Assembly: GCF_900113085.1 (NCBI RefSeq)
Contig: NZ_FOOC01000003.1
Location: forward strand, 62,001-126,000
From: Fontimonas thermophila
Lineage (GTDB): Bacteria; Pseudomonadota; Gammaproteobacteria; Nevskiales; Nevskiaceae
Length of the DNA: 64,000 bases
Direction of reading: 5' to 3'
Below the pieces are notes generated by a model. It worked only from the letters and a program-made list of their open reading frames with translations. It ran no database searches and was not told the DNA's origin. Both the position numbers and the translations under genes were made by a program. Positions 14,846 through 62,478 of this stretch are shown in pieces. Position 1 is the stretch's first letter, and each line of letters opens with the position of its first letter.

Positions 14846-15598
14846 TCAATGGCGTGCCGTGGCGAGGTCCAGCAGCCGGCCGAAGTTTTCCAGCGAGATC
14901 AAATGGGCATAGACCGCGCGCAGCTCGCCTTTGTGCATCAGCGTGCGCAGATCACGGCCGGCGATCTGCTGCAGACGCTGCTCGTCGACCCGGAACAGGC
15001 CTTGCAGGCGGCGGTGCGGCCCCTGCCGCGGCAAGGCCAGCGCGTCGAACGGTACCAGCAGGTTGAGCGCCTCCAGACGCCGTGCCAGGACACGGGTCTG
15101 CAGGCGCGCGCCTTCGAAGGTCTCGATCAGCTGCTGGATCGGTGACCAGGCTGGCGTCGGGTTGCCGTCCGCGTCGAACAGCGGCTGGGCGGTATCGCGG
15201 GTCAGCGCGCGCTCATCGACGCAGATCAGCCGGCGCGCGCCGGACACACGGGTTTCACCCGGGATTTCGGCGATGCAGAACGGATAGCGCCGGCAGTATG
15301 CCGGCACGTAGGCGCCGGATCGCCAGTGTCCCTTCGTGTCGACGAACAGGTTTTCGCCGCTGCGCAGGCCAAGGACGGCAACCGGTTGATACTCACCGCC
15401 GGGCTCGCGTGCGAAGGCAAGCGGATAATCCAGTGCGGCACGCGCGAATTCTGCCGCGCTCACGTAAACGGCATTGAGCGTCGCACACCACGTATAGGCG
15501 ATTCCCGGAACAAGCCCCATGCCGGCGTGGCGCCGACGGTCGAACGGCACCACGCCTCCGTAACCGGGCGGGGCGCCCAGGCGAAGCGATCGGCTCAT
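14846..15598 (-). CDS. SapC family protein
   Basis: The 250-residue protein matches the SapC family, named after a gene in the Campylobacter fetus S-layer locus; a biochemical function is not established. Family-like features are an N-terminal 'HAGMGLVPGIAYTWCATLNAV' segment, 'GWRSGAYVPAYCRRYPFCI'-type residues around 'AYVPAYCRRYPF', 'CVDERALT', and the C-terminal 'LISLENFGRLLDLA'. There is no signal peptide, so it appears cytoplasmic. It starts 52 bases after the FecR/SPOR gene on the same strand and is probably the last gene of the tpsB-tpsA-fecR-sapC unit, which ties it by context to surface protein export. Confidence 0.8.
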   Translation of the reverse strand: MSRSLRLGAPPGYGGVVPFDRRRHAGMGLVPGIAYTWCATLNAVYVSAAEFARAALDYPLAFAREPGGEYQPVAVLGLRSGENLFVDTKGHWRSGAYVPAYCRRYPFCIAEIPGETRVSGARRLICVDERALTRDTAQPLFDADGNPTPAWSPIQQLIETFEGARLQTRVLARRLEALNLLVPFDALALPRQGPHRRLQGLFRVDEQRLQQIAGRDLRTLMHKGELRAVYAHLISLENFGRLLDLATARH

Positions 15599-15650
15599 GC
15601 GAGCGCGCGACTCCCCCGCCGGGGCGCTGGGAGTGGCGAGGCCGTCGTGC

Positions 15651-16754
15651 TCACTCCTGGGCGCAAATCGTCAGCGGATTGGGAATCGGGTCGATGCGCA
15701 GGAAGCGCGGCTCAAACGGCAGATAGATCTGCGCGCCATCGGGCAGTGTGACGAGGTATTGCCCGGCGCCGACATCCGCGGTTTTGCCGCTCTCACTGGT
15801 GACGAAGACGCCGCCTTCGATCACCCCGACGACGATCCCGTTCTCCGCACTGCTGCCCGCGGGCAGCGCGTCTGACAGCACCGGATCCCTGGCGCAGGCG
15901 GTATCGCACAGGATGACGAGATAGTCGGTGCCGCGGATGCCGATCGTCGCAACCGGCGTGCTGACGCGGTATTCCTGCGGATCCGACTTGCCGATCAGCC
16001 CGGAGACTGCGCGAAAGCCGCCTCTGAGCAGGCGGAAATAGGCGCGCGAAACGGCCGGCTCGGCGGGCGCGGTGGCGACGGGCACCGTCTCCGGCGCCGG
16101 TGGGGTTGTCGGTGCGGGCTGTGCCACGGTCGGTGCCGGCGGTGTTGGGGTTGTCGTCGTGCCCGGCACGATCGACGGCTTGCGAAAACCGGTGCGTTTG
16201 AGATCGGAGATGAGCTTCTCCGCGGCGGTGCGGTCCGCGAGCTCGCGCACATACACGCGGTGCCAGGTCGTGCCCGGCCGGATGCGGACTGCAACCGCCT
16301 CGGCCTTGAGCCCGCGCGCATTCATGCGCCGGACGATCCGCTGCGCCTCGTCGGCAGTGGCATAGGTTTCGACGATGACCGACCAGTCGCCGCCAACCGA
16401 TGGAGGCGGGGACGCCGTGGCTGGAGGCGCAGCCGCTGCTGTGGTAGTGGCAGGCGGTTGCCCGACGGGCGCCTGGGCATAGTCCTCGATCATGAACCGC
16501 GTGTTCGGACGCAGGAGCACATGGCCGCCATCGACGAATTTGAGGTTGATGTAGCTGTTGGTCGATGAACTGATGATCTCCCCGGCGTGGACGGCATCGC
16601 CCTTGGCGAGTTCGCGGATCGTTCCCGCCCGTGGGTCGGTTGCCGTGCCGCGGCCGGTGATCAGCAAGACCTCGCCGGCAGGCGTGGCGGATATCCCACG
16701 ACCGGCTCCCAGCGCCAGCACCGAGGCGAGCAGCAGCGTAAAGGACTTGTGCAT
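15651..16754 (-). CDS. Secreted FecR-domain protein with an inserted SPOR domain
   Basis: The 367-residue protein has a signal peptide (residues 1 to about 23). The first half of a FecR domain spans about residues 26-94 ('GEVLLITGRG', 'GHVLLRPNTRFMIEDYA'). A Pro/Thr/Ala-rich linker (95-122), a SPOR-like domain (123-197, 'WSVIVETYATADEAQRIVRR') and a second Pro/Thr linker (198-236) follow. The FecR domain then resumes at about 237 ('AYFRLLRGGFRAVSGLIGK', 'TPVATIGIRGTDYLVI'). In ordinary proteins of this type those two FecR parts are nearly contiguous, so the SPOR unit is nested. SPOR domains usually bind denuded peptidoglycan. ATG 16754 lies 16 bases after tpsA. Confidence 0.85.
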   Translation of the reverse strand: MHKSFTLLLASVLALGAGRGISATPAGEVLLITGRGTATDPRAGTIRELAKGDAVHAGEIISSSTNSYINLKFVDGGHVLLRPNTRFMIEDYAQAPVGQPPATTTAAAAPPATASPPPSVGGDWSVIVETYATADEAQRIVRRMNARGLKAEAVAVRIRPGTTWHRVYVRELADRTAAEKLISDLKRTGFRKPSIVPGTTTTPTPPAPTVAQPAPTTPPAPETVPVATAPAEPAVSRAYFRLLRGGFRAVSGLIGKSDPQEYRVSTPVATIGIRGTDYLVILCDTACARDPVLSDALPAGSSAENGIVVGVIEGGVFVTSESGKTADVGAGQYLVTLPDGAQIYLPFEPRFLRIDPIPNPLTICAQE

Positions 16755-16770
16755 GCGAAAGTCTCCGGCG

Positions 16771-19700
16771 TTACGGACAGGCCAGCTCGGTACGCTCGCC
16801 GCTGACGATGTCGATCTGCGCGCCATCGCCATATTCGGGATCACGCGCCTTATCATCCGTCTCGGGGTTCTGATGGGCGAGCGTTTCGCCGCCCAGATCA
16901 TCGGTCAGCACGATTGCGCTTGCGGTTTCCTGATCCGGGTTCGTGCCGGGCCCGGGTTGCTGCGGCCCGACGACGATTTCGCCGCCGAGCACCACGACCT
17001 GGCCATTCGTGCTGAGGCCGTCGAGCCTGCGCAGTCGGCCCGTGGTCAAGAAGATGTAGTTGGCATCTTCGAGTGATCGGATATCGATCTCTGGAGCGAA
17101 GATCTCGATATCGCCCGCATAGCCGGTGCCCCCGAAGGCCAGCGTGAGGCTGCCCCCGACCTCGAAACTGCCGCTGTTCGGATCGACCTGGATCGGGGCA
17201 CTGTCGCTGAACGGCCGGTAGTTGTAGAACAGATCGCCCGGCGCGGCGATCGATACAGCGCCCAGGAAGGGCGCGCGCACGAACAAATAACCGCCGTCGA
17301 TGGTCAGCGTGCCGAGCGAAACACCGTCTTGCGCGATGAATGCGGCATTGGGCGCGCTGGTCGCAGGGAGCAGACCGGGCGCTACGTCTTCCAGCAGTTC
17401 GAGCATGTCGGGATCTTGGCCTTTCTGGGCAAGACCCGTACCGACGTGGAGGGTCGAGTGTGTCAGGTCGATCGATTGCGCAGAGACATCGAGCGCACCT
17501 GCATTGATCTCAAGCCCGGCGGTGGCAGCGGTGATGGATCCGACGCTGATCAGATCGACATGATCGCCCTCGATGATGCCGTCGAGCGTCTGGCTGGCGC
17601 CGTCCAGCAGGACCTCGCCGCCGGTGATACCAGAGCCGCTGACCGCGAGATCACCCCCGGCCACGGCTTCGAGCGAGTTGAAATTCTCGATGCGGCTGGT
17701 CCGAAGCTCGATCGTGCTGGCCGATTCGAGCGTGATCGTGTCGTCGAAGGACAGAGTGCTTTGATCGATCACGATGCCGCTTCCCGCAGCATTCGGGGTT
17801 TGCAGCCGCAGTGTCTGGCCTGCGAGTTCGGTTTGAATCAGGCGCAGGCCACTGCTCGCTGTTGCGTCGATGCTGCCGGCCGTGATCGCCGTGTTCTGGA
17901 GCTCGATGGTCTGGGCTCCGCTGAAAGTCACGCTGCCGAGTTCTTCGATGCGGGTATTGTCATGGATCGTCCATTGCGCACCGGCGAGCAGCAGGGTGCC
18001 GGTGCCGCTGTCGCTGAGGATGTGGCTGTCGCGAATCAGAGCGCTGGGTGCGCTCAAGGTGGTCTGCTCCCCGATGAGTCCGCTATTGTCGATCGTCAGT
18101 GTCCCGCCAGCAGAGAAGCTGCCGATGCGATAGGCCAGATTGGCGCCGGTGATGGACAGATGGGTGTCGGCAAGCAGGGCGAGGTCGATGCTGGTGACGT
18201 CGAGTGCCGCTGCATCGATCGTATCCGCACGCAGCTCGAACAGGCTCGCGGATTCGATGGCCGTGGTGTCGAAGTCAAGCGTGCTGTGGTCGATCAGAAT
18301 GCCGGCGCCGCTGGCACTTAGGGTCCGGAGCATGGCGGAATCGGTGTTCAGCCTGCCGCCGATGATGCGCAGCTCGCGGTTGGCGGTTGCGTTGAACGCA
18401 AGGGCGGTGATCGTCGTGTTCTGGATCGACAGGCTGTCGGCACTCCAGCTCGCGGTGCCGAGGTCGAGGCTCGCTCCATGGCCGTTCACCATCAGCGTGC
18501 CGGCGGCGGTCAGGGCGGCATCGCGCAGATCCGAGTCGGTGCCAAAGTCGAGCGTGATGCTGTCTGCCTGGATGTTCAGCGGATCGAAAACGAGATCCGG
18601 ATTGCCGGACTCCCCCTCGTTCACGGAGGCCGGGTGTACGAAGTCAGAATAGACGCCGGGCAGGGTCTGCGTCAGCCGATCGGCCTGCAACGTCACGGCA
18701 CCGCTGGCAATGACATCGAGTCCGGTGACGAGCCGGCCATCGACCTGTGCGTCGATGCCGGTAACCGTTGCCGGTGTTCCGACCCCGCCGACGTACAGGA
18801 GCGCAGCCGCGAAGTCCGGCGGCGGCACGGAATGGGCTGGATCGTCGCTGGTGTAGCGGCCTGCGTCGTGTTGAAGGCTGATGGTCCCACCGATGCTGAC
18901 GGTGTTCCCCTGGATGACCGCGCCGACCAGGCCGGTTCCCTGGACCTGGACGTCGCCGTCGATCGTCACGCTCGACGGCGTACCGCCGTCGGCAAAGCCG
19001 ATGGTCACGCTGCTGACGGCGCCGATGGCCTCGGTGGTGAAGGGCCCCATGGGGGTCACCGAGGGGTTGTCGACGGGCGGTCCGTAGTTCGCAACATCGG
19101 CGACATGCGGAGCCTGCGCGCCGAGTGCGCCGAGCGCCCGGACACTGCCCAGATGCACGCTGCCCATATGGATGATATCGATGCTCGCAGCGTCGCCGCT
19201 CGCCTCTAGCGTGCCGGCGATGTCAAAATCCGTTCCCGCGTTGCCCGAGTTAAAAGTGAACAGGGCTTCGCTGTACCGTGCGGTGCCCGTGACCGTCGGA
19301 TTGCCGCCATCGAACACGACGGTCTCGCCGATCTGGCGCTCAACCTCGTAGCATTGCGAATCGACACACTCCTCCTGGACGAGCGTGCCGGAGACGAAGC
19401 CGGTTGTGGCGTGCACCGTCGCATCGCCTCCCACGGAAAGGCCTGTTGCGCTGATGTCGGCGTACACCCCCCCCTGTCCGCTCACGCTGAGGTTGCCGCT
19501 GATGCTGACGTCTCCGGCCATCCAGTTGTCGAAGCCCGCGATCGTCAGTCGAGCGCCCCCCCATTCACTGTGTCCCGTGGTCAGGGTGACTTCATCGCCT
19601 CCCGTGAAGGACTGATCATCACCCGGTGCATGCCCGAAACCCAAGGCCGTCCAGTCGCCCTCGATCCGATACCCCTGGCCGGTGATCGCGAGGTCACCGT

Positions 19701-22272
19701 CGATCGCGACGCTTTGGTTCGCGCTCATGAACAGCGCAGCGCTCGGACCGCTGAGCGTGATGTCGCCGCCCGCGATGATGCTGGGGTTCGTTGCGCTGCC
19801 GCCGGTTCCGGTGATGGTGGCGGCAGCGACACCGTAACTGGAATCGACGACGGTGACGTTGCCGGAATCGAGTATGGTGAAAGTGTTGTCCCCCGGCCGC
19901 GCCATCAGGCGGAGCGCCTGGCCTGCCGAGCCTGCCAGGACCACACGGTCGGCATGGGCATCGAAAAATGCGTTGGGACCGGAGATGTCGATGCCGTGGG
20001 TCGTGATTGTGCCGTTACCGGTGTAAAAGTAAGCAGAAGCATCGCCGAAATGGCGTTCGATCCGGGACGCGCCGGTATCGACCGTTTCGGTTGCGGTTTC
20101 GGCCGTGATGGTCAGTGCGCCGCCGAAATTGATGTCACTGCCTGTATCGATGCCAGTGCCGGCACTGACATAGGCAGAGCCAATGCCGTGGACCGTTACC
20201 GAGCCATCGAAGTTGACCGAGCTGCCGTAGGCGGACAGCGTGGCGTCGCCCCTGGACGTTGTGACGATGCTGCCGGAATCGTCGATCGTCGAGTCGATGG
20301 CCTCTCCGGTGATGGTCACGTCGCCATCGACGTCGATCGCGCCTGAGAAAGCGTTCATGAAGACCCCAGCAGCGGAGCTTTCTGCCGATCTCGAGGCGCT
20401 GAAACCACCGCCACTGGCCACGATGTCCCCGCCGACCTGGATACCGCCATTGGCGTTGAAGAGGTCGATCGAGGCAAGACCAAGACTTGCCGTCGCCGAC
20501 AGGGTGCCGGTGCTGACGGCAGCAGAGGTGCTGGCGCCGGTGCGGGCGATGTTGATCTCGGCATCGTGGAGGTCGTCGATGCCCGTGCGTCCGGTCACGG
20601 TGACGTTCTGCACATCGATACCGCCGGCAGTGGTCATGAGATCCACACGACCGCGTGCGTGGATGTCGCCGCCGACATGGATGTTGCCATTGGCATACAT
20701 CGCAACATTGCCGCCGGCATCGATGGTGTTGGTCACGTCGATGGCATCGGCTGCTTCGATGGAAACATCACCGCCGCTGATCAGGCGCGCATTCACGTTC
20801 ACCGTGCCGCTGCTCGAACCGCCGAAGATCGAGATGTCACCAGCGATGTCCAGCGTATCGTCGGCGCCCTGGATGGCGATGGAGCCGGCGCTGGAGCGTG
20901 TGACGGAGCCGATGCATTCGCCGAAGCCGCCAAACTGATCGCAGGTGCCGGTTTCGAGCCGCAGGCCAGCGCCTTTGGTGTCATCCGTCGGGTTGACGCC
21001 GTTGAGCGTGTTGTCGCCGCCCAGGTCCTGAATCGTGATCGTATCCGTGGCCACGATGTGCACGGTGCTGCCGCGGTCGTTGTTCTGCAGCAAAGCCTCC
21101 AGCGTGGAGGTCTGCAGGTCGGCATCCACGCCATCGCCGATCGTCATCGTCGCGGGGTCGATCAGCAGATGGCCGTTCCTGCCCAGATCGACGCTGCCGG
21201 CAATGCGCACGCGTCCGCGTCCCGACAGCTCCACGGTACCGCCCTGACCGCCGACATCGACATGCGCGCCCGCCTGATGGTCGAGGCTGCCGCCGGCGAT
21301 GGCCAGTACGCTGCCGCGATCACCCGAGGCCTCGACGAGGGCTCCGCTGGTGAGCGTGATGTCGCGGTCACCGGCGAGCACGATGCGGCCGTCGCCGCCG
21401 GAAGCATCGAGGATGCCGCTGTGGGCGATATCCCCGCCCGCGGCCACGAGATAAATCTCGCCGCCGCGCTGCTCGATGGCCTGTGCCGAGATGCGGCCGC
21501 TGTTGTTGACGGCATGATGGAGCAGGTCTTGTGCGACGCGCGCATGCAGCAACACGCTGCCGCCGTCGGCGACAATCGCGCCGGCGTTGTCCACGCCGGC
21601 CGCAGCCGACAGCGCCGCTGCATCGACGGCGACGCTGACCAAGCCTTCTGGATCGAGCTGCAGGGACAGCTGGCCGGCGGCGGCCAGCACGACATCGCCG
21701 CTTTGCGCCGTGATCGTGCCGCGGTTGTACACATGGTCGGCGGCGAGCACGACGAAGCCACCGTCGCTGGCGTGAATGGTGCCGGCATTGACGACGCCGG
21801 CGCTGCTGCTGCCGGCGAAGAGGTAACGCCCATCGATGAAGTCCTGGTCGGAGAGCGCGTGGGTCGTCGCCACCAGCGCGCCGACGTCGATGCGGCTACC
21901 GGCGCCGAACAGGATGCCCTGCGGATTGATCAGGAAGACCCGGCCATTGGCCGTGAGATCGCCGAGAATCTCCGACGGCAGGCCGCCGATCACGCGGTTG
22001 AGCACCGCTGCGGAGGCCGATGGCTGGTTGAACAGGACGTATTCGCCGCTGCCGATCGAAAACGTCTCCCAGTTGATGATCGCCGTATCCGAAGTCTGCT
22101 CGATGACCAGTCCGCCGGCGCCTGGCGAGGCAATGCCCACCTGGCCGTGGATGACATCCGCACCGGTGGGTGCCGCCAGCGTTCCCAGCGGGGCGAGAAG
22201 ACCACCCCAGGCGAGCAGCGGAGTGCGCTGCCGCAGGATTCGCGCGATGCAAGTCAGGGCATGCTCTGTCAT
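16771..22272 (-). CDS. TpsA-type exoprotein with filamentous haemagglutinin N-terminal domain
   Basis: The 1833-residue protein has a signal peptide ending near 'LAPLGTLAAP' and a two-partner secretion (TPS/haemagglutination activity) domain over roughly residues 35-165. Landmarks are 'INWETFSIGSGEYVLFNQP', 'NRVIGGLPSEILGDLTANG' and 'LINPQGILFGAGSRIDVG'. The rest is Gly/Asp/Thr-rich beta-helix sequence. A module of about 100 residues occurs twice (18131-18441 and 17619-17916). The C-terminus has no obvious toxin, protease or anchor domain. ATG 22272 follows tpsB by ten bases. An adhesin or surface-fibre role is the likely reading; cytolysin activity cannot be excluded. Confidence 0.9.
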   Translation of the reverse strand: MTEHALTCIARILRQRTPLLAWGGLLAPLGTLAAPTGADVIHGQVGIASPGAGGLVIEQTSDTAIINWETFSIGSGEYVLFNQPSASAAVLNRVIGGLPSEILGDLTANGRVFLINPQGILFGAGSRIDVGALVATTHALSDQDFIDGRYLFAGSSSAGVVNAGTIHASDGGFVVLAADHVYNRGTITAQSGDVVLAAAGQLSLQLDPEGLVSVAVDAAALSAAAGVDNAGAIVADGGSVLLHARVAQDLLHHAVNNSGRISAQAIEQRGGEIYLVAAGGDIAHSGILDASGGDGRIVLAGDRDITLTSGALVEASGDRGSVLAIAGGSLDHQAGAHVDVGGQGGTVELSGRGRVRIAGSVDLGRNGHLLIDPATMTIGDGVDADLQTSTLEALLQNNDRGSTVHIVATDTITIQDLGGDNTLNGVNPTDDTKGAGLRLETGTCDQFGGFGECIGSVTRSSAGSIAIQGADDTLDIAGDISIFGGSSSGTVNVNARLISGGDVSIEAADAIDVTNTIDAGGNVAMYANGNIHVGGDIHARGRVDLMTTAGGIDVQNVTVTGRTGIDDLHDAEINIARTGASTSAAVSTGTLSATASLGLASIDLFNANGGIQVGGDIVASGGGFSASRSAESSAAGVFMNAFSGAIDVDGDVTITGEAIDSTIDDSGSIVTTSRGDATLSAYGSSVNFDGSVTVHGIGSAYVSAGTGIDTGSDINFGGALTITAETATETVDTGASRIERHFGDASAYFYTGNGTITTHGIDISGPNAFFDAHADRVVLAGSAGQALRLMARPGDNTFTILDSGNVTVVDSSYGVAAATITGTGGSATNPSIIAGGDITLSGPSAALFMSANQSVAIDGDLAITGQGYRIEGDWTALGFGHAPGDDQSFTGGDEVTLTTGHSEWGGARLTIAGFDNWMAGDVSISGNLSVSGQGGVYADISATGLSVGGDATVHATTGFVSGTLVQEECVDSQCYEVERQIGETVVFDGGNPTVTGTARYSEALFTFNSGNAGTDFDIAGTLEASGDAASIDIIHMGSVHLGSVRALGALGAQAPHVADVANYGPPVDNPSVTPMGPFTTEAIGAVSSVTIGFADGGTPSSVTIDGDVQVQGTGLVGAVIQGNTVSIGGTISLQHDAGRYTSDDPAHSVPPPDFAAALLYVGGVGTPATVTGIDAQVDGRLVTGLDVIASGAVTLQADRLTQTLPGVYSDFVHPASVNEGESGNPDLVFDPLNIQADSITLDFGTDSDLRDAALTAAGTLMVNGHGASLDLGTASWSADSLSIQNTTITALAFNATANRELRIIGGRLNTDSAMLRTLSASGAGILIDHSTLDFDTTAIESASLFELRADTIDAAALDVTSIDLALLADTHLSITGANLAYRIGSFSAGGTLTIDNSGLIGEQTTLSAPSALIRDSHILSDSGTGTLLLAGAQWTIHDNTRIEELGSVTFSGAQTIELQNTAITAGSIDATASSGLRLIQTELAGQTLRLQTPNAAGSGIVIDQSTLSFDDTITLESASTIELRTSRIENFNSLEAVAGGDLAVSGSGITGGEVLLDGASQTLDGIIEGDHVDLISVGSITAATAGLEINAGALDVSAQSIDLTHSTLHVGTGLAQKGQDPDMLELLEDVAPGLLPATSAPNAAFIAQDGVSLGTLTIDGGYLFVRAPFLGAVSIAAPGDLFYNYRPFSDSAPIQVDPNSGSFEVGGSLTLAFGGTGYAGDIEIFAPEIDIRSLEDANYIFLTTGRLRRLDGLSTNGQVVVLGGEIVVGPQQPGPGTNPDQETASAIVLTDDLGGETLAHQNPETDDKARDPEYGDGAQIDIVSGERTELACP
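17619..17916 (-). repeat. TpsA internal duplication, copy 2
   Basis: This stretch encodes about 100 residues starting at 'IELQNTAITAGSIDATAS' and containing 'GSGIVIDQSTLSFDDTITLE', 'SASTIELRTSRI' and 'SGSGITGG'. It aligns along its length with the copy encoded at 18131-18441. Shared landmarks include QNT-IT, G-GI-IDHSTL/IDQSTL-FD, ESAS and ELR. The copies have diverged, so the duplication is old. Confidence 0.7.
18131..18441 (-). repeat. TpsA internal duplication, copy 1
   Basis: This stretch encodes about 100 residues starting at 'LSIQNTTITALAFNATAN' and containing 'GAGILIDHSTLDFDTTAIE', 'SASLFELRADTI' and 'LSITGANL'. It is homologous to the module at 17619-17916, and about 70 residues of unrelated beta-helix sequence separate the two. 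Confidence 0.7.
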
Positions 22273-22282
22273 GGCCGTCGCC

Positions 22283-23929
22283 TCAGAATTTGACGGAGAG
22301 AGAACCGTACAGGCGGCTGTCGTCGCGACCGTCGCTGGCCGGGTGTTGATCGAGCGGGAACGCCCAGTCGAGCTTGAGCGTGAGCCAGCGGTAGCTGGCA
22401 TCGGCGCCGACCCCCGCACTGGTCAGGGTTTCCGTGTCGCTGACGCCGGGCGGTGCATCGACGAGCATCGCCTTGCCGGCGTCGGCGAACACCCGCGGAT
22501 TGACGCGCACATTCCCGAACGCGAACGGTTTGTGCAGCTCGATGCTGCCAAAATAACCGCGGTCACCGCGGATCTCGGCCGGCGCATAGCCGCGGATCGT
22601 CGTCGGTCCACCGAGGGCGTACTGCTGTGGCGCGGCCAGCGGGTCCGGCGAATAGACACCGTTGAGATGCACCCGGATCTGGAACAGTGTGGATACCGGC
22701 TGCGCATGCTGTACGTCCAGCTCCCAGCGCAGGCGCTGGTCGGCGCGCACACGGCCCGACGGCGGGTTGAGCTCGGCGCGCGTTGCTTGGTCGAAATTGG
22801 ACGCGATCGTGGTCGCCACTTGCGTCACCGCAAAGCCCGGATGGGTGTGAGTGTAGGTGAGCCCGGCCTCGGCAAGTGTGATGGAAGTGTCATTGAAGGT
22901 TGCGCCGCCGAAGTCGGCGTTCGACAGCGTGCGCGAGGCGCCGAGCGAGCCGGTCAGGACGTGACGCGCGTCACGCAGGAAAGGGTGGTCCAGCACGATG
23001 CGCCCGGAACGGCTGCGGCCATCGACCGGGGCTCCGTCGATCTCGAAATCGGCGTGGCCATAGGACAGGGTCAGCCGCGTGCCGCGGACGGTGACCGGCA
23101 GACTGTAGGCGCCGTAACCATAGTTCAGCAGACCGTCTTCGGAGGTCAGGGCGAGCAGTTGCAGCTGATCGGCCACGCGTAGAGGGTTGTTGAGTTGCAG
23201 CAGCCCGGTCAGCCGGTATTCGCCGATGCTCTCGCGGCCATAGTTGTCCACGGTGACGAGGCCGGCGAGGCGGTCTTCCTCGGTCCTGATCCAGAGCTCG
23301 CTGGTGCCAGGGGCTTCGCCGGGCTTGAGCACGGCGCGTACTTTGAGCCCCGGCAGCGTGTTGAGTGTGCGCAGGCCGGGTTCGAGGGTTCCGGATCGGT
23401 AGATGCTGCCTCTGAGTCCGGGGAAATACCCGGCGAGCTGGTGCGTGCGGTATGAGACGTTGCCCTCAGCCTTGATTGCGGCGATGCGGCCTTCACTCAC
23501 GCTCAGACGCACGGTGCCGGCCGATACTTGCTGCGGTGGTACGTTCACCGAGGCCAGTGTGTAGCCCTGTTCGTGATAGAACGCCGCCACCTTGTCTGCG
23601 GCGGCGTAGAGGTCGAGCAGCGTGATCGGGCGGCCGACGTAGCTTTCGATCAGTGCCTGGAGCTGCGCCTCCCCAAACAGCGTGTTGCCTTCGAAGACGA
23701 AACGCTGGACGGTGATGGTCGCCAAGGCTGTTTCACGGGGCGTGCCCGCACTGGGGCGGGTGCGAACCTCCGGCGGTATTGCCTCTTGGGCGGGCAGCGG
23801 GTTTGTCTGGGGTACCAGGGGCGCGCCGGGCTGTGTGGTCTGCGCGGCGGTATGGCCGGCATGAATCAGCATGCCGATTCCCATGAGCGCGGCGGAAACG
23901 GCGGGGTTGAGTCTCAGACACATGCGCAT
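22283..23929 (-). CDS. TpsB outer-membrane transporter (ShlB/FhaC family)
   Basis: The 548-residue protein is the partner transporter for TpsA. A signal peptide ends near 'HTAAQ'. A Pro-rich linker and two POTRA domains follow (about residues 70-225, with 'VQRFVFEGNTLFGEAQLQAL' in the first). The rest is a 16-stranded-type barrel with 'VDNYGRESIGEYR', 'YALGGPTTIRGYAPAEIRGDRG' (the conserved RGY loop) and a C-terminal 'SLSVKF' ending in Phe, as expected for BAM-dependent insertion. It is the first gene of the minus-strand unit and has a good promoter upstream. Confidence 0.93.
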   Translation of the reverse strand: MRMCLRLNPAVSAALMGIGMLIHAGHTAAQTTQPGAPLVPQTNPLPAQEAIPPEVRTRPSAGTPRETALATITVQRFVFEGNTLFGEAQLQALIESYVGRPITLLDLYAAADKVAAFYHEQGYTLASVNVPPQQVSAGTVRLSVSEGRIAAIKAEGNVSYRTHQLAGYFPGLRGSIYRSGTLEPGLRTLNTLPGLKVRAVLKPGEAPGTSELWIRTEEDRLAGLVTVDNYGRESIGEYRLTGLLQLNNPLRVADQLQLLALTSEDGLLNYGYGAYSLPVTVRGTRLTLSYGHADFEIDGAPVDGRSRSGRIVLDHPFLRDARHVLTGSLGASRTLSNADFGGATFNDTSITLAEAGLTYTHTHPGFAVTQVATTIASNFDQATRAELNPPSGRVRADQRLRWELDVQHAQPVSTLFQIRVHLNGVYSPDPLAAPQQYALGGPTTIRGYAPAEIRGDRGYFGSIELHKPFAFGNVRVNPRVFADAGKAMLVDAPPGVSDTETLTSAGVGADASYRWLTLKLDWAFPLDQHPASDGRDDSRLYGSLSVKF

Positions 23930-60808: not shown

Positions 60809-62478
60809 GGAGATGGTGGAGCGTGTCCTCTCGAAACGGTTGCGTTCGATGTCGGTCCGAAGCGGATGCGGAACGTTGCGCCGGTTGCGCTCGCCACGTG
60901 GCTCAGCCGGGCCTGATTGTATTCGCACAGTTCGCGGCACAGGAAAAGTCCGAGTCCGGTGCCGCCGGTATGGGTGGTGAAGAAGGGTTCGAAGATGCGC
61001 TCGTGCAGCTCGGCCGGGATGCCGGCGCCATCGTCGATGACGTCGAGCAGTACTGCGCCGTCCTCCGCGCTGTGCGAGGCGCGCAGTCGTACGTTCACCG
61101 TGCGGCCGATGCGCGCGCCGTGTTCGAAGCTGTTGTCCCACAGGTTGAACAGCACCTGCTGCAAGTGCTGCGGATCGAAGCGGACTTCGACGTTGCCCGG
61201 TACGTCGTCGAGCTCGATCGGACGCACGGTGTGCGGATGGCTTTCATGGTAGAACGCAACAGTGCGTATCAGCCATTCCCGCAGGCGTAGGTTCATCCGT
61301 TGCGACGGCCCTGGGCGTGACAGGTCGAGCACGTCGCGGACAATACGCTCGATGCGTGCACCGTGGCGCTGGATCATTTCCAGCAGGCGTGCATTTTCGC
61401 CGCGCATCTCGGCAGCTTCCGACAACAGTTGTCCGGCCTGCAGGATCGCCGACAATGGATTGCGGATTTCGTGCGCGATGCTGGCCGACAGCCTGCCGAG
61501 CGCGGCGAGTTTCATCTGCTGCGCCTGCTCGCGCAGGTGTGCCGCATCGTCCAGCAGCACCAGCACCTGTGTCTGAGCGCCCCATCCCAGCGGGGTGAAG
61601 CGCACCGTGAGTTCGCGCCCGCTGCGCGCGCCAGAGAGCAGCAGGCTTGCATCGTCGCGGCCGGCGCGCCAGGCGGTGAGCGCCTCACCCAGCGCGGGCA
61701 TGGTGCGCGCTGCCGTCGTGCCGGGGGTGAGGGCATCACCGAGCAGGCGTCGTGCCGCGGTATTGGCCAGGCGCACGCGATCCTCGGCATCGATGACGAG
61801 TACGCCGGTCTGCATCGATTCGATGATGCTCTCCGACAGGCGGGAGAGGTTCATGAATTCGCTACCGACGCGCTCGGCGACGGCTTCACTGCGGCGCGCG
61901 CGTTGGGCGACGAGGTTGGCGACCAGGCTCGACGCGAAGAACATCAGGCCGAGCAGGCCGGTTTGGGAGTAGTCGCTACTGTCCCAGGCATGCGTGTTCA
62001 GTTGCTGGGCCGTCTCCGCCGCGAACATGCCCAGCGTCGCCACCGCTGCCTGGACGGCAGCCAGGCGCGGACTCAGCACCAGGCTGCAGCCGATCACCGG
62101 TGGCACCAACAGGATGCCCAGGCCGCTGCCTATGCCGCCGGCGGCATAGACCAGCGTGCCGATCGTCAGCGTGTCCGCAAGACAGTGCAGATGAGCCTGT
62201 ATACGCAGGCCCGGCCGGCGATAGGCGCCGAGCAGCAGCAAAACGAGCGCGAAGATGACGTAAACCAGGCAGCCGTAATAAAAGGCCGGGGCCGACAGGC
62301 GCTGAAAGAATTCCGGCGCAAAACCGCTGCGGTACAGGGACAGCAAGGTCGCCACCAGGAGCAGGCGGTACGGCCCCAGCACCGCGAGGATGCGCCAGTC
62401 CTCTAGGCGTGCCGGCTCGGTGAACGGCCGCGGCGCAGCCGGTTGTCGTGCACGGTGCGCGCTGAGGCGTTCACTCAC
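60805..62478 (-). CDS. pilS: PilS-type membrane sensor histidine kinase
   Basis: The 557-residue kinase has about six N-terminal membrane segments (residues 30-200), a PAS domain (about 215-325, 'ESMQTGVLVIDAEDRVRLAN'), a HisKA domain with 'LSASIAHEIRNPLSAILQAG', and a HATPase with 'LFNLWDNSFEHG', 'DDGAGIPAELHERIFEPFFTTHTGGTGLGLFL'. This matches PilS of Pseudomonas, which pairs with PilR to sense pilin levels. It overlaps pilR by four bases, so the pair is translationally coupled. Confidence 0.9.
   Translation of the reverse strand: MSERLSAHRARQPAAPRPFTEPARLEDWRILAVLGPYRLLLVATLLSLYRSGFAPEFFQRLSAPAFYYGCLVYVIFALVLLLLGAYRRPGLRIQAHLHCLADTLTIGTLVYAAGGIGSGLGILLVPPVIGCSLVLSPRLAAVQAAVATLGMFAAETAQQLNTHAWDSSDYSQTGLLGLMFFASSLVANLVAQRARRSEAVAERVGSEFMNLSRLSESIIESMQTGVLVIDAEDRVRLANTAARRLLGDALTPGTTAARTMPALGEALTAWRAGRDDASLLLSGARSGRELTVRFTPLGWGAQTQVLVLLDDAAHLREQAQQMKLAALGRLSASIAHEIRNPLSAILQAGQLLSEAAEMRGENARLLEMIQRHGARIERIVRDVLDLSRPGPSQRMNLRLREWLIRTVAFYHESHPHTVRPIELDDVPGNVEVRFDPQHLQQVLFNLWDNSFEHGARIGRTVNVRLRASHSAEDGAVLLDVIDDGAGIPAELHERIFEPFFTTHTGGTGLGLFLCRELCEYNQARLSHVASATGATFRIRFGPTSNATVSRGHAPPSP

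Follow-up and report, generated by a model that had tools for sequence, protein, structure and literature searches.

A two-partner secretion locus of Fontimonas thermophila in which a separate cysteine-tailed FecR protein may tether the exported fibre

In the excerpted part of PMC5422565, the known adhesins of two-partner secretion (TPS) are either released from the cell or held by a disulfide within TpsA itself, and those with a C-terminal cysteine anchor keep their C-terminus in the periplasm; CdrA carries a cysteine hook according to the excerpt of PMC7616799. In the giant adhesins of the LapA type, as far as the excerpt of PMC6890996 describes them, the adhesin carries the retention module as its own N-terminus, is exported by a type I secretion system (T1SS) and is released by LapG. 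We analysed a stretch of 64,000 nucleotides from Fontimonas thermophila (positions 62,001 to 126,000 of contig NZ_FOOC01000003.1), hereafter the window, which carries tpsB, tpsA, fecR and sapC in a row on the reverse strand. The locus resembles the HMW1/HxuA/CdrA-type TPS adhesins, within what these excerpts cover, in TPS export and in a cysteine near the C-terminus of TpsA. It differs in that their disulfide lies within TpsA, held in TpsB, whereas the window combines one TpsA cysteine with a separate cysteine-tailed protein. We lean towards a reading in which the TPS fibre has its own periplasmic tether, FecR, attached through a disulfide, and SapC acts before export.

The locus and its paired terminal cysteines

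The four genes were found at the positions, in the order and in the families given by the original prediction, with gaps of 10, 16 and 52 bases. Coordinates below are those of the window.

22283..23929, reverse strand: tpsB, outer-membrane exporter of 548 amino acids with a POTRA domain and a ShlB-type barrel (Pfam ShlB 1.3e-26, POTRA_2 7.6e-20)
16771..22272, reverse strand: tpsA, secreted fibre of 1833 amino acids with an N-terminal TPS domain and an acidic C-terminal tail
16777..16779, reverse strand: codon of the terminal TpsA cysteine, the penultimate residue (...TELACP), read from the sequence
15651..16754, reverse strand: fecR, 367 amino acids, FecR/retention-module-like, with an N-terminal signal sequence judged by eye
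16425..16673, reverse strand: FecR residues 28-110, similar to the retention module of LapA and to the cell-surface anchoring domain 5ix9
16185..16394, reverse strand: SPOR domain, FecR residues 121-190, an insertion in the linker of that protein
15915..16040, reverse strand: second FecR half, residues 239-280 (Pfam FecR 3.6e-7)
15663..15665, reverse strand: codon of FecR C364, the C-terminal cysteine, invariant in both 25-row alignments
14846..15598, reverse strand: sapC, 250 amino acids (Pfam PF07277 1.1e-57, 195.7 bits against a cut-off of 28.9)

The TPS domain of TpsA (residues 37-285) matches PF05860 at 5.1e-37 and NCBIfam adhes_NPXG at 8.8e-23. Judged by domains, TpsB (POTRA and ShlB barrel) and TpsA (N-terminal TPS domain) are a two-partner secretion pair on both counts examined, and with the profile-mapped loci of relatives this bears out the export role that had been proposed; from its family membership, TpsB would export TpsA. 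The genome (2.73 Mb, 28 contigs) contains one SapC, one TPS domain and one FecR of the module type at E<=1e-10, and encodes DsbB, a point in favour of the disulfide proposed below.

The tails of module TpsA proteins are acidic, look disordered by eye and carry a cysteine at position -1 to -7. Among complete, non-identical TpsA proteins from loci with a recognised TPS-linked FecR, 25/25 have a cysteine within the last seven residues, where 0.32 would be expected from their own cysteine content, and six of these (L032, L036, L112, L114, L240, L255) have no other cysteine in the counted protein body. In the window TpsA the cysteine stands at -2 and the next at -860. An intramolecular C-terminal cysteine hook was considered for this protein and rejected, since it requires two cysteines near the C-terminus and one is present.

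The terminal cysteine of FecR was surveyed in 68 non-identical FecR frames, of which two cut at the 3' end were set aside, as were three that have sapC, lie at or near a contig edge and lack an upstream open reading frame (ORF) above the size limit (all Cys-ended). A terminal cysteine was present in 27/27 FecR with a recognised tpsA or tpsB, and in 13/13 that follow a long Cys-ended ORF running off the sequence, the TPS role of which is assumed from its place and tail. Since 15 of the 16 TpsB compared lack a cysteine beyond residue 21, TpsB is, on sequence, not a likely disulfide partner; the window TpsB has a single cysteine, at residue 4.

Conservation of the gene set

Upstream of the four genes lie glycine-cleavage genes on the opposite strand, preceded by a glycine riboswitch, and downstream lie two convergent ubiH-like genes; gcv and ubiH are the names that we presume for these flanking genes from their sequences. 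The riboswitch (RF00504, 24133-24227, forward strand, 61.5 bits) is located upstream of the divergent tpsB start. A SapC relative was found in 41 of 100 relatives' genomes, named relatives including Solimonas, Sinimarinibacterium, Nevskia and Stagnimonas. Of the 48 sapC places listed for other genomes we fetched 40, and located the four genes in them by profiles. The full order tpsB-tpsA-fecR-sapC was present in 12/40 (L032, L033, L034, L036, L038, L043, L046, L048, L049, L053, L054, L056), and two were rearranged, L052 as tpsB-fecR-sapC-tpsA and L057 with fecR upstream of tpsB. In nine, fecR and sapC are present and the TPS genes would lie beyond the fetched reach (the pair in L041 being about 4.6 kb apart), in eight sapC adjoins a TPS gene and fecR is missing (L035, L040, L042, L058, L059, L062, L063, L065; the TPS domain of L058 and L063 came from a separate TPS-domain search), and nine had neither fecR nor a TPS gene by sapC.

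The FecR profile, run against 369 genomes from the class, matched in 72 of them at E<=1e-15, and 20 loci were picked for a short or high-scoring FecR. In nine of them (L240, L244, L245, L246, L247, L249, L252, L255, L257) FecR has as its neighbour either a match to the TPS profile or a long ORF with a Cys tail; in L244, L252 and L257 this ORF runs off the stretch and has no TPS profile match. SapC follows in 7/9. The FecR/TPS association is seen again at other addresses and in other gene orders (L052/L090, L057, L255). One outcome that would have refuted the original prediction, no conservation of fecR and sapC next to tpsBA in relatives, did not occur.

In the window's family the block is mostly found between gcv and ubiH, that is, at one address, so that gene order there could be inheritance alone. 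An explanation of the whole association as neighbours kept together from gcv to the ubiH-like genes, with no joint role, gains from this address and from the persistence of sapC alone at it; it is nevertheless scarcely credible, given the same set in other families (L092 and L097 among the sapC places, and L240, L245, L247, L249), the reordering in L052, L057 and L255, and the paired cysteines. The places where sapC stands alone between gcv and ubiH-like genes, without a TPS gene, are L055 and L071/L085 (one contig fetched twice), and there sapC may be either a relic or a gene with an independent role.

FecR as a proposed separate retention protein

The N-terminal part of FecR is like the module of LapA-type T1SS giant adhesins: the LapA retention-module profile NF033682 matches 25/25 FecR, that of the window below the curated cut-off, and the 5ix9 anchoring domain, which we take to be that of MpIBP, was recovered by profile and by fold. 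Its likely job is that of a folded periplasmic stopper. The difference from LapA-type systems is that the module here is a separate protein, linked, as we propose, to the C-terminus of a TPS substrate. The window FecR shows both the periplasmic FecR fold and the SPOR fold, and the invariant columns in the second FecR half, in a 25-row alignment, are V268 A269 T270 G272 I273 R274 G275 T276.

A quite different role, that of a cell-surface-signalling sensor like PupR/FecR which reads the export state and relays a signal, is improbable: Pfam gives only SPOR and FecR above cut-offs in the window FecR and no anti-sigma domain, its hydrophobic start reads as a signal sequence, so that the protein is apparently wholly exported, and no sigma factor or TonB receptor is encoded among the four genes.

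The SPOR domain of this protein looks sound. It was found in 1/35 FecR scanned (25 aligned and 10 further TPS-linked or TpsA-adjacent), that of the window alone; the other 24 aligned FecR have a different linker, usually Pro/Ala-rich, with a Cys-rich insert in three. Because of this count, a septal role cannot, on the sequences compared, be a property of the module, and peptidoglycan binding through SPOR is possible in this species. The earlier proposal that FecR retains the fibre is supported by features it had not named, the paired C-terminal cysteines and the LapA-like domain, whereas its placement of the system on peptidoglycan or at the septum falls as a module property and could hold at most as something special to this species.

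In the mechanism that we favour, the acidic tail in which TpsA ends, with a single cysteine 1-7 residues from the end, would remain periplasmic, and this cysteine would be disulfide-bonded to the C-terminal cysteine of FecR; folded FecR would be unable to pass through TpsB, so the fibre would be held on the cell. The SPOR domain in the FecR linker may, in this species, add binding of denuded peptidoglycan. SapC, probably a cytoplasmic protein, would act on the fibre or on its delivery at a stage that precedes export, and some relatives are without it. Taken with all its parts, as a trans-acting retention module with the anchor split off into FecR, one disulfide between the extreme C-termini, a stopper under TpsB, a SPOR tie to peptidoglycan here and SapC as a helper in the cytoplasm that also serves other giant exported proteins, the proposal is a tentative one.

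Several observations weigh against this tether. The retention model draws on sequence co-occurrence and fold similarity, from which we infer the disulfide. Of the FecR whose fetched stretch shows no TPS gene, 7/23 are also Cys-ended (L118, L119, L120, L123, L124, L248, L259); compared with 27/27 this gives a Fisher p of 5e-8 with relatedness ignored, and the terminal-Cys counts are not phylogenetically independent. The window FecR scores 30.5 with NF033682, below the curated cut-off of 50, a second look at 5ix9 gave a Z of 7.3, tied with unrelated chains, and the LapG-type protease PF06035 had 0 matches in the own genome at E<=0.001. A single terminal cysteine with no fecR within a few kb downstream occurs in five TpsA (L190-L193, L195), and these argue, at the sequence level, against a strict pairing rule. 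Finally, sapC is absent and tpsB-tpsA-fecR kept in five loci (L112-L115, L117), and in L116 short SapC-like pieces alone remain after fecR; from such loci, the module core is, by gene content, tpsB-tpsA-fecR, with sapC optional.

The five single-Cys TpsA come from 20 other TpsA whose ends were fetched, each frame being fixed by its TPS domain; L194 and L196 run off the contig, which leaves 18, and a fecR profile search of the 20 stretches, covering a few kb downstream and not upstream, found none. Two cysteines in the last 14 residues occur in another 5/18 (L197, L201, L202, L208, L209), and 8/18 have none near the end (L198-L200, L203-L207). Among further loci without adjacent fecR, L059 has two cysteines in the last 12 residues, in L155 the two stand at -25 and -7, and L062, L063, L065, L136 and L143 have none near the TpsA end. 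In favour of the tether, the two-Cys tails of six TpsA without fecR in the fetched stretch (L059 and the five above) are like those of self-contained hook systems. A class of TpsA of ~3600-4300 amino acids from the same family (L059, L198, L201, L203-L205, L207-L209) includes some with two terminal cysteines and others with none near the end.

The lone Cys-ended FecR (7/23) and the five single-Cys TpsA would also suit another explanation, in which the terminal cysteine of TpsA forms a TpsA-TpsA dimer or a bond with some other protein of the periplasm, FecR being a factor for folding or assembly that has its own use for its C-terminal cysteine. We regard this as unlikely, since both terminal cysteines co-occur where the genes adjoin, in several families and gene orders. 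As to the tether by FecR, the genomes of three of the five single-Cys TpsA (L191 and L193 in G036, L192 in G017) contain a second, lone Cys-tailed FecR (L119 and L120), which could act in trans. The lone Cys-tailed FecR of L119 (10158-12738), L120, L123 and L124 comes right after a barrel-like ORF of 480-600 amino acids; a Pfam scan of that of L119 and L123 gave no match, and it is perhaps another secreted partner.

SapC and the meaning of the locus

SapC has no signal sequence visible by eye in 30 aligned rows and is probably, as predicted from sequence, a cytoplasmic factor that acts before export. Its predicted structure (predicted local distance difference test, pLDDT, 93.1; predicted template modelling score, pTM, 0.87) gave no fold match among PDB structures. 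In 99 non-identical SapC, E50, N83, Y97, P99, P106 and S235 are kept in 97-100%, W92 in 93%, R103 in 91% and H232 in 88%, and because of these strongly kept residues one function common to the family is likely. HMW1C is located in the cytoplasm. Within the excerpt of PMC3983070 it is the third gene in the HMW1 TPS locus; HMW1C is a glycosyltransferase and SapC is without a recognised fold, both being third genes in TPS loci.

SapC was found in 138 of 398 genomes of the phylum, and the neighbours of PF07277 genes vary: TPS genes, M50-HlyD or GAF-HlyD exporters, some with giant proteins, halogenase/Cupin_8/TonB clusters, or none of these. A peptidase M50-HlyD fusion lies near sapC in L130, L132, L134, L167, L060, L066, L068 and L069, with a GAF-HlyD fusion also present in 5/8, an OEP channel added in L132 and L167, a short SecA-like protein and an RTX giant in L130, and a cadherin-like giant in L066. 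The six neighbours scanned in L130 and L132 included no ABC transporter, and the set is possibly an unusual exporter. In 9/40 sampled loci (L137, L138, L147, L150, L157-L160, L166), sapC is beside tryptophan-halogenase-like, TonB-receptor and often Cupin_8 genes. In L096 and L099-L109, contigs mostly labelled betaproteobacterial, SapC is 34-43% identical to that of the window, and the fetched stretch gave no TPS or fecR match.

The sapCDEF genes of the Campylobacter fetus S-layer locus are mentioned in the excerpt of PMC4943207, and the Pfam family PF07277 shares the SapC name with that locus. Unlike that locus, the four module genes include no S-layer gene, and tpsB is the sole secretion gene. 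The original prediction, in which SPOR brings the fibre to the septum and SapC arranges it in the manner of an S-layer, is very improbable, SPOR being present, among the 35 FecR scanned, in that of the window alone and SapC lacking a visible signal sequence, being absent from five otherwise intact loci and occurring in several unrelated contexts in the phylum; taken as a whole, with export and retention included, the earlier interpretation is partly supported.

SapC, named after S-layers, is then a common protein with a conserved polar core and no recognised fold. If the tether by FecR is true, retention by a distinct protein with a Cys tail would add a third option to the two known for TPS adhesins, release and a disulfide within TpsA. 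It would link the worlds of T1SS retention modules and TPS, and would account for the occurrence of a gene with a FecR domain next to TPS loci in several families of Gammaproteobacteria.
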